This document shows positions 5,340 to 16,575 of a stretch of 64,000 bases of DNA, one piece after another. This DNA is from Thermoleptolyngbya sichuanensis A183 (GTDB lineage Bacteria > Cyanobacteriota > Cyanobacteriia > Elainellales > Elainellaceae). Within the stretch, counting starts at the first letter, position 1. Every line of letters starts with the position of its first letter. The notes beneath the pieces are model-generated. The model worked only from the letters and a program-made list of their open reading frames with translations. It was not told the DNA's origin and did no database searches. The stretch is taken from NCBI RefSeq assembly GCF_013177315.1, contig NZ_CP053661.1:5270001-5334000 (forward strand). Direction: 5' to 3'. The position numbers and the translations under genes were made by a program.

Positions 5340-6686
5340 ATGACCAACCTGATGCATACGCTTTTCGGTTCGCAGGGCTATATTCCCCACGGGCACTGTT
5401 ATCTGTGGCAACCCTGGCTGGTGTGGTTACATGTTGCGTCGAATGCGGCGATCGCCCTAGCTTATTTCTCGATTCCCGCCTTGCTCCTTTACTTCATCGC
5501 CAAGCGCAGAGATGTTCCGTTTAACTGGATGTTTGTGTTGTTTGGAGCGTTCATCATCGCTTGCGGCATAGGACATCTGATGGATATCTGGACGATTTGG
5601 CATCCAAACTACTGGCTGTCGGGTGTGGTGAAAGCGTTCACGGCTATCATTTCGATTTATACGGCGATAGAGCTAGTGCCGCTGATTCCTCAGGCGTTGG
5701 CGCTGCCCAGTCCAGCCAAGCTAGAAGCGGCGAATCGAGAGCTAGAACGGGCGCTGCGAGAGCTTCAGAGTACCCAGTCGCGCCTCATCCAGGCGGAAAA
5801 GCTTTCTAACCTCGGACAGCTTGTGTCGGGCATTGCTCACGAAATCAACAATCCCGTTAATTTTATCTACGGCAACATCAATCACGTCAGCAGCTATACG
5901 CAGGAATTGCTCAATTTGCTGGCGCTGTATCGAGAAACGGTTCCCCAACCTGCGCCCGCTGTGGCAGAGGTCTTAGCCGAGAGCGATCTGGAGTTTATCG
6001 AGGGCGACCTGCCCAAGACCCTTTCCTCGATGCAGATTGGCGCAGACCGGATTCGCCAGATTGTGCTGTCGCTGCGGAACTTTTCTCGCGTAGACGAAGC
6101 GGAAATGAAGCCCGTGAATCTTCACGACGGCATCGACAGTACGCTGATGATCTTGCAGCATCGCCTCAAACCAAAGGGCGATCGCCCCTGCATTCAGGTG
6201 GTGCGCGAGTATGGCGATCTGCCCAAAGTGGAATGCTATGCGGGACAGCTCAATCAAGTGTTTATGAACATCTTGAGCAACGCAATCGACGCGCTAGAAG
6301 AAGTCTATGAGACTCATCAAGCCAATCAATCAAGCACGCTAGAGCGAACGCTTCAAGACAAAGCACCTGTCATCAAGATCTGCACACGCCTGATTGAACC
6401 GGACAATGCTGCGAAGCAGGTTGAAATCTGCATTGCGGACAATGGCCCCGGCATTCCCAAAGCGGTGCAAGCCCAAATTTATGAAGCGTTTTATACCACC
6501 AAGCCACTCGGCAAAGGAACCGGACTGGGGTTGGCCATTAGCCATCAAATCGTCACAGAAAAACATCGTGGGCAACTGATTTGCCAGTCCGACACAGGGC
6601 AGGGCACAACTTTCTTAATTCAGATTCCGCTAAGACAGTCATTCGTTGCCCCAGAGTCAACGCGCACCGCAGCGAGAAATCCCTAA
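5340..6686 (+). CDS. ethylene-receptor-like sensor histidine kinase
   Basis: A 448-aa membrane sensor. Residues 26-120 form three transmembrane helices matching the ethylene-binding domain of plant ETR1 and cyanobacterial Etr1 proteins: IALAYFSIP in helix 1 and CGIGHLMDIW in helix 2, with Cys75 and His79 at the places of the copper ligands Cys65 and His69. A coiled coil (125-155) leads straight into a kinase core with phospho-acceptor His167 (SGIAHEINNP), N box (FMNILSNAIDAL), DNGPGIP and GTGLGLAIS. There is no GAF/phytochrome or receiver domain. The residue at the position of ETR1 Asp25 is Asn35. I chose the ATG at 5340 because the family starts close to the PHGHCYLW segment; a TTG 51 bp upstream is in frame. 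No response regulator is adjacent; dapB follows 42 bp downstream. Ligand binding is inferred. Confidence 0.9.
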   Translation: MTNLMHTLFGSQGYIPHGHCYLWQPWLVWLHVASNAAIALAYFSIPALLLYFIAKRRDVPFNWMFVLFGAFIIACGIGHLMDIWTIWHPNYWLSGVVKAFTAIISIYTAIELVPLIPQALALPSPAKLEAANRELERALRELQSTQSRLIQAEKLSNLGQLVSGIAHEINNPVNFIYGNINHVSSYTQELLNLLALYRETVPQPAPAVAEVLAESDLEFIEGDLPKTLSSMQIGADRIRQIVLSLRNFSRVDEAEMKPVNLHDGIDSTLMILQHRLKPKGDRPCIQVVREYGDLPKVECYAGQLNQVFMNILSNAIDALEEVYETHQANQSSTLERTLQDKAPVIKICTRLIEPDNAAKQVEICIADNGPGIPKAVQAQIYEAFYTTKPLGKGTGLGLAISHQIVTEKHRGQLICQSDTGQGTTFLIQIPLRQSFVAPESTRTAARNP

Positions 6687-14356: not shown

Positions 14357-14640
14357 TGTCCGCCGCATTGGAGGGATTTTAGATTTTGGATTTTAGAGTT
14401 TGGATTGGCAATTTTGGAGGGTATGGGGCGTGTGGCTCAAGAATTGACCCCAACCCAAAACCTCCCCCTGCTCCGCAACAACGCACACCACAAGGTTCAA
14501 TCAGATTCGCTATCTTCAGAGATTGAGCATAGCCATCCAGGCGCGTCCTTTCCGCCGCTTTCTTTCCATAGAGCTATCGAGCAATGGCTTGCTCAGGCGA
14601 AAAGCCCTATCTAGAACTCTCAATCCCTTTCAAACTTTGT

Positions 14641-16575
14641 ATGACGACAACCCGCGAAACGCTGACTTCTCCTAACCCTCAGGCAGGGGCATTGCATCCC
14701 TTAGAACCGCTGACCGCTGCTGAAATTAACCAGGCGGTTTCCCTGCTTCGGCAGCAAAAAAACGTGGGCGACGGTTTTCGGTTTCCCTCGGTGACGCTAC
14801 ATGAACCGCCCAAGGCGTTGGTGCAGGCCTATCAACCGGGCGATCGCTTTGAGCGAGAAGTCGCCGTTATCTTGCTGGACAATGCCACGGGGCAAACCTA
14901 CGAGGCCATCGTTTCCCTCACCCAGGGGCATGTCACCTCCTGGAGGCAGGTGCCGGGAGTGCAGCCTAACATCATGGCCGACGAACTGGTGGAGTGCGAA
15001 GCGGTGGTCAAGGCCCATCCCGACTTTCACGCAGCGCTGGCAAAGCGGGGCATCACTGACTTGGATCTGGTGATGGTCGATCCGTGGGCACCGGGCAACT
15101 TTGGCTTTGAACACGAAAAGGGCATCCGCTTTTCACGCTGCATCTGCTATCTCCGCGCCACACCCGACAGCAATGCCTACGCCCGCCCCATCGATGGGCT
15201 AATTCCCGTGGTGGATTTGAACAAGATGGCGCTAATCCGCATCGAGGATCTGGGCGTGGTGTCTGTGCCGCCAGAGCCGGGGGAATACGAAGCCCGCTTC
15301 ATGCCAGAGTTTCGCAAAGATATTAAGCCGCTGCACATTACTCAGCCCGAAGGGCCCAGCTTTCAGGTCAACGGGCACCACATCCGCTGGCAAAAATGGG
15401 ACTTTCGCATTGGCTTTACCCCCCGCGAGGGGCTGGTGCTGTATTGCGTCAGCTACGAAGATCAGGGGCGGCTGCGGCCGATTCTCCATCGCGCTTCGAT
15501 GGCAGAAATGGTTGTGCCCTATGGCGACCCGCGCCCGCAGCACTATCGCAAAAACGCCTTTGACGTGGGCGAACATGGCGTGGGACTGCTGGCCAATTCC
15601 CTCAAGCTGGGCTGCGACTGTGTGGGCGAGATTTACTATTTTGACGGCGTGCTGACCAATAGCCGGGGCGAGGTGTCGGTGATTGAAAACGCCATCTGCT
15701 TGCACGAAGAAGACTTTGGAATGCTCTGGAAGCATACCGACTGGCGGAGGGAGAGCGTGGAAGTGCGGCGATCGCGCCGTCTGGCCATTTCCTTCATCGC
15801 CACGGTAGACAACTACGAATACGCCTTTTTCTGGTACTTCTATCAGGACGGCAGCATTCAGTTTGAGGTCAAGCTAACGGGCATTCTGCTTTGCGCGGCG
15901 CTGGCGAATACCCCGAAATATGGCACGCTGGTTGCCCCAGAGCTAAACGCTACCAACCATCAGCACTTTTTCTGTATGCGGCTGGACTTTGACCTGGATG
16001 GCACAGCCAACTCTGTTTACGAAGTCAACACCGAAGCCGAGCCGATGGGCCCCGAAAATCCAATGGGCAATGCGTTCTATGCTGTCTCAACGCTGCTGGC
16101 AACCGAGCAGCAGGCCCAACGCCTGATCGACCCCTTCACTGCCCGCTACTGGAAAGTGGTGAACCCCAACGTCACAAACCGCCTGGGGCAACCCGTCGGC
16201 TTTAAGCTTGCGCCCGGAGAAAACGTGCTGCCCTTTGCCCATCCTGACTCGCCTATCATGAAGCGGGCTGGCTTTATGGGCAAGCACCTGTGGGTCACGC
16301 CCTACGACCCGGCCGAGCGCTATCCCGCTGGCGACTATCCCAACCAGCACCCCGGCAGCCAGGGCTTGCCCCAATGGACGCAGGCCAATCGCTCGATCGA
16401 AAATACCGACGTGGTGGTTTGGTATAACTTTGGACACCACCACATTCCCCGCCCTGAAGATTGGCCCGTCATGCCCACGGCCTACTCTGGCTTTATGCTA
16501 AAGCCCGTCGGCTTTTTTGATTGCAACCCAGCGCTGGACGTGCCGCCCTCTGAGCCCAAGCACGCTTGTCATTAA
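14641..16575 (+). CDS. copper-containing primary-amine oxidase
   Basis: A 644-aa copper/topaquinone amine oxidase that oxidises primary amines to aldehyde, ammonia and peroxide. The cofactor precursor Tyr is near residue 392 in VDNYEYAFFW (N-Y-E consensus). The copper ligands are the His-x-His in NHQHFFCMRLDFDLDG and the His in NFGHHHIPRPEDWPVMP. LVELEAVVKAHP-like N-terminal domains and GLxxNSLKLGCDC are typical. There is no signal peptide, so it is probably cytoplasmic. I start at the ATG at 14641 (MTTTRETL); an in-frame ATG 57 bp upstream is possible. It could release nitrogen from amines, but no amine transporter adjoins it. Confidence 0.93.
   Translation: MTTTRETLTSPNPQAGALHPLEPLTAAEINQAVSLLRQQKNVGDGFRFPSVTLHEPPKALVQAYQPGDRFEREVAVILLDNATGQTYEAIVSLTQGHVTSWRQVPGVQPNIMADELVECEAVVKAHPDFHAALAKRGITDLDLVMVDPWAPGNFGFEHEKGIRFSRCICYLRATPDSNAYARPIDGLIPVVDLNKMALIRIEDLGVVSVPPEPGEYEARFMPEFRKDIKPLHITQPEGPSFQVNGHHIRWQKWDFRIGFTPREGLVLYCVSYEDQGRLRPILHRASMAEMVVPYGDPRPQHYRKNAFDVGEHGVGLLANSLKLGCDCVGEIYYFDGVLTNSRGEVSVIENAICLHEEDFGMLWKHTDWRRESVEVRRSRRLAISFIATVDNYEYAFFWYFYQDGSIQFEVKLTGILLCAALANTPKYGTLVAPELNATNHQHFFCMRLDFDLDGTANSVYEVNTEAEPMGPENPMGNAFYAVSTLLATEQQAQRLIDPFTARYWKVVNPNVTNRLGQPVGFKLAPGENVLPFAHPDSPIMKRAGFMGKHLWVTPYDPAERYPAGDYPNQHPGSQGLPQWTQANRSIENTDVVVWYNFGHHHIPRPEDWPVMPTAYSGFMLKPVGFFDCNPALDVPPSEPKHACH

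Follow-up and report, generated by a model that had tools for sequence, protein, structure and literature searches.

Architecture of the receptor kinase

The gene under study lies at 5340-6686 on the forward strand of the window, the 64,000-nucleotide stretch of Thermoleptolyngbya sichuanensis A183 DNA that was analysed. Its translated ORF, which ends with the stop codon at 6684-6686, and its Pfam matches identify the product as a 448-aa ethylene-receptor-like sensor histidine kinase. The ethylene-binding domain spans residues 13-122 (5376-5705), of which residues 27-122 match the Pfam ETR1_N profile (PF25487) over profile positions 2-97 of 97 with an E value of 4.3e-43, and the score of 146 bits, above the curated cut-off of 27 across the whole domain, places the protein in this family. 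Three helices (residues 25-55, 61-87, and 91-112) are predicted for the domain in a low-confidence structural model. The same Pfam search locates HisKA from residue 158 and HATPase_c at residues 303-432 (6246-6635). The kinase motifs are intact, with the phospho-acceptor His167 (5838-5840) in an AHEINNP motif within the dimerisation/phosphoacceptor helices (residues 156-253, 5805-6098, from Pfam, motif, and model) and with N and G boxes in the catalytic domain; by these motifs and matches the protein is a histidine kinase.

Plant-type ethylene receptors carry a GAF domain between sensor and kinase, and a linker of about 40 residues is found here instead. No GAF or PAS domain was detected in the 448-aa protein by Pfam at E<=0.001, and nothing stands between sensor and kinase apart from this short linker (mapped to residues 123-155, 5706-5804), which bears out the original prediction that the sensor is joined directly to the kinase core. 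An AlphaFold model built from 8 sequences (pLDDT 63, pTM 0.44), whose membrane part is of low confidence, predicts a linker helix (residues 125-151), long helices over residues 156-253, and a mixed fold resembling an ATPase, in line with a direct connection of this kind. A sequence search found no solved structure of the membrane domain.

Two bacterial receptors illustrate both the likeness and the differences. SynEtr1 (slr1212) of Synechocystis likewise combines a cyanobacterial ethylene-binding domain with a histidine kinase in one protein, but a phytochrome-like light-sensing part separates the two (PMC6508509), and SynEtr1 is listed among the receptors having all seven binding residues (PMC11819568). 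AzoEtr1 of Azospirillum brasilense, a bacterial receptor kinase for which ethylene binding has been shown, shares the residue numbering of the 448-aa protein (D35, C75, H79, and K98 in AzoEtr1), but has Asp at position 35, contains a PAS domain, and is encoded next to a response regulator gene (PMC11819568).

The ligand pocket

A BLASTP comparison of the ETR1 N-terminus with the 448-aa protein gave 41% identity over 94 residues (E=2e-22) and placed Asn35, encoded by an AAT codon at 5442-5444, on ETR1 Asp25, an assignment with which the AzoEtr1 numbering agrees. The numbering of the ETR1 query reproduces the published D25, Y32, I35, P36, I62, C65, H69, and K91. The original prediction had described Asn at this position, retention of both copper ligands, and an interval of 29 residues from Pro46 to Cys75, all of which are found; it had also described an alignment free of gaps, which is true of helices 1 and 2 but not of the loop between helices 2 and 3, where ETR1 is three residues longer. 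The residues retained are Tyr42, Ile45, Pro46, Ile72, Cys75, His79, and Lys98, and these include the equivalents of the copper ligands ETR1 Cys65 (Cys75, 5562-5564) and His69 (His79, 5574-5576), and of ETR1 Lys91 (Lys98, 5631-5633), the proposed polar partner of Asp25 (PMC11819568). ETR1 depends on seven residues for binding, and six of these therefore have their counterparts here, the exception being Asp25; the signalling Lys is retained as well.

Asp25 is one of those seven residues, and ETR1 mutated at this position reportedly no longer binds ethylene (PMC11819568), so that the effect of Asn in the present sequence background is not certain. Loss of ethylene binding, which would leave a ligand-blind or constitutive kinase, or a reporter of copper loading or membrane state, would be in keeping with that report, and we regard it as unlikely, though deserving of serious attention. 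Against it, every binding residue other than Asp25 is retained, both copper ligands included, and no part of the protein is better conserved than the sensor. Furthermore, the review PMC13012798, which describes work by Azhar et al. 2023 and Aman et al. 2025, reports that ETR1 carrying the specific change of Asp25 to Asn is functional, with an ethylene affinity about 100-fold lower. Because of that report, the presence of six of the seven residues weakens the claim to membership among ethylene receptors but leaves room for function. The D25N mutant has in common with the 448-aa protein its three-helix domain, the Cys and His copper ligands, the Lys, and the Asn itself; unlike the 448-aa protein, ETR1 has GAF and receiver domains, and its Asn was introduced by mutagenesis, whereas the Asn considered here is natural.

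Distribution of the Asn variant

The original prediction had raised the question of how often Asn occurs at this position, and it proves to be a minority state. Among 183 distinct cyanobacterial ethylene-binding domains, a sample made up of 60 relatives and 80 named genome loci and skewed towards relatives of the query, position 35 is Asp in 172, Asn in 10, and Ser in 1. Azhar et al. 2023 (PNAS) reportedly note in their abstract that Asn variants exist. The Asp is described as highly conserved in plants and bacteria, with natural variants in existence, in PMC13012798. When 390 genomes from across the class were searched with a DNA pattern for HGHCYLW followed at the right spacing by Asn or Asp, 14 genomes yielded the Asn pattern, at 16 sites in total, and 178 genomes yielded the Asp pattern. 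None of the 15 fully read Asn domains from this search has lost either copper ligand, and the other Asn variants retain the same six binding residues, with the exceptions of a change from Ile to Val (L132/L240) and of the degenerate L133.

In domain trees from which position 35 was excluded, at least 7 changes are needed to account for Asn (180 domains), or at least 10 (186 domains, including extra loci chosen for Asn); these counts are rough, because the trees rest on few columns and contain many weak branch points. The variant is found in different architectures, including GAF-less kinases, a PAS-rich 1313-aa kinase, and forms of 593 to 1079 aa, and its scatter over the domain tree indicates that it is recurrent. 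In G040, a complete single-contig genome, the sole ETR1_N protein is Asn-type, which argues that Asn-type receptors are not merely dead paralogues, and which also speaks against a loss of binding.

A near-identical natural pair of the two types, L125 (Asp) and L245 (Asn), has domains that are 93% identical outside positions 35 and 82. Such similarity would be compatible with neutral drift, in which Asn and Asp are interchangeable at this position and affinity is unchanged, perhaps through rescue by another acid such as Asp82 (5583-5585), located one turn past His79. Asp82 is indeed present in 15 of 16 Asn-type domains, as against 58 of 172 Asp-type domains. However, this co-change came to light when every column was scanned, and it falls short of significance when independent pairs are compared, and the retention of Asp35 in 172 of the 183 domains shows that the position is constrained, for which reasons we give neutral drift only a very slim chance. 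No co-change of Asn35 with Lys98 was found (Fisher p=0.13, and no support on independent pairs).

Relatives lacking a GAF domain

The GAF-less layout is common to the 448-aa protein and its close cyanobacterial relatives. Asn is found in L037 (Kaiparowitsia implicata), L035 (Cyanobacteria bacterium RU_5_0), and L039, and Asp in L036, L157 (Lyngbya sp. HA4199-MV5), L158 (Stenomitos rutilans), L038, and L043. The relatives resemble the 448-aa protein in architecture, each with a linker of some 40 residues, and show 57-65% whole-protein identity for the seven that were aligned, and five of them differ from it by having Asp at position 35. Because these Asp-bearing relatives have the same layout, the absence of a GAF domain is not tied to Asn. 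On the best tree the Asn state in this clade takes two changes, and a single Asn clade receives an AU p value of 0.10; Asn may thus have arisen once or twice here. The nearest relative, L037, keeps the Asn but by a different codon, AAC rather than AAT.

In each pair compared the sensor is better conserved than the kinase, as with L037, where identity is 79% for the sensor and 60% for the kinase. The ethylene-binding domain has a dN of 0.14 against that of L037, with dS near-saturated. Conservation above that of the kinase, combined with the low dN, points to selection on the sensor, as would be expected of a sensor that works.

Genomic context

The host genome (5.5 Mb, single contig) encodes four ethylene-binding domains, two with Asp and two with Asn. 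Alongside the 448-aa GAF-less kinase, the second Asn-type receptor is L132, a 1313-aa kinase with many PAS domains (G000:C1:4394500-4399500), while the Asp-type receptors are a 1003-aa GAF kinase with a receiver and a 725-aa PAS kinase. These two Asp-type receptors could carry ethylene sensing for the host, which favours the view that the 448-aa protein has lost binding.

No adjacent response regulator was found by Pfam among the larger genes scanned between positions 120 and 21291 of the window, and no RNA families or tRNAs were found near the gene. Across relatives there is no conserved gene neighbourhood, apart from L035/L039 and L157/L158. In L035 (4252-4836) and L039 (5656-6201), a small gene without a Pfam match lies just upstream of the receptor. 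A copper amine oxidase gene is located about 8 kb downstream of the receptor in the window (14584-16575), with no evidence to tie it to the receptor.

The neighbourhood also bears on whether Asn changes the choice of ligand, such that the copper site senses some other small molecule (another alkene, an alkyne, or CO). Repeated switching from Asp to Asn beside the copper site would fit altered selectivity as well as altered affinity, but the receptor is not associated with any neighbouring biosynthetic or metabolic gene, and no sequence feature indicates another ligand, making this a decidedly improbable explanation.

A probable low-affinity ethylene receptor

The best reading, and one that we hold to be probable rather than secure, is that the 448-aa protein is a functional low-affinity ethylene receptor of minimal type. 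By analogy with family members, the protein would form a dimer in the membrane, with Cys75 and His79 of both subunits contributing to the coordination of Cu(I), and the copper would be where ethylene binds, as in ETR1, SynEtr1, and AzoEtr1. Judging from ETR1 D25N, Asn35 could still hydrogen-bond to its neighbours but would lack the negative charge of Asp, a loss that would weaken ethylene binding and alter the bridge between Asp and Lys98 that leads to signalling output. The receptor would then respond only at higher ethylene, an expectation about affinity carried over from the plant receptor. The signal would pass from helix 3 through the coiled linker directly to the kinase, with no second (light, redox, or other) input domain on the way, and ligand binding would change autophosphorylation at His167 and, in turn, phosphotransfer to an unlinked response regulator. 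Beside the two Asp-type receptors and the other Asn-type receptor of the host, the protein would broaden the range of ethylene levels that the cell can detect.

The original prediction that the protein senses ethylene with altered affinity is narrowed by this reading to ethylene at lower affinity, as the domain, the residues kept, and the published D25N receptor suggest, but the novelty it implied is unsupported. Both a natural Asn at this position and a GAF-less, simple output are already known in kind, because natural variants are described in PMC13012798 and bacterial receptors have been described with output parts 'from simple to complex' (PMC7700396), and the simple output is shared with Asp-bearing relatives. 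What is added here is that Asn is scattered across cyanobacteria, that Asp and Asn receptors coexist in one genome, that G040 has an Asn-type protein as the only one of its kind, and that L125/L245 form a near-identical natural pair.

A broader proposal, which we put forward tentatively and as a possibility that may well not hold, is that repeated Asp/Asn switching at one residue of helix 1 lets cyanobacteria adjust the span of ethylene levels to which their receptor sets respond, with a cell carrying high- and low-affinity copies and the 448-aa protein serving as a low-affinity, single-input member. If natural Asn-type receptors do bind ethylene more weakly, the single-residue dial revealed by mutagenesis in Arabidopsis is one that bacteria use too. 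The repeated switches, one of them recent (L125 with Asp versus L245 with Asn), and the G040 receptor make such a dial directly testable.

Degenerate and divergent domains

Other pocket residues also vary among the ethylene-binding domains of longer kinases. In L133 (G033), L141 (G018), L121 (G006), L143 (G002), and L150 (G009), degenerate domains on long kinases have each lost one copper ligand, through a change of His to Arg or of Cys to Tyr, Ser, Asn, or Trp, and these domains probably no longer bind copper. In L080, L081, L085, and similar domains on longer kinases, the equivalent of ETR1 Lys91 is Arg or Gln (sometimes His), and the Asp is mostly kept.
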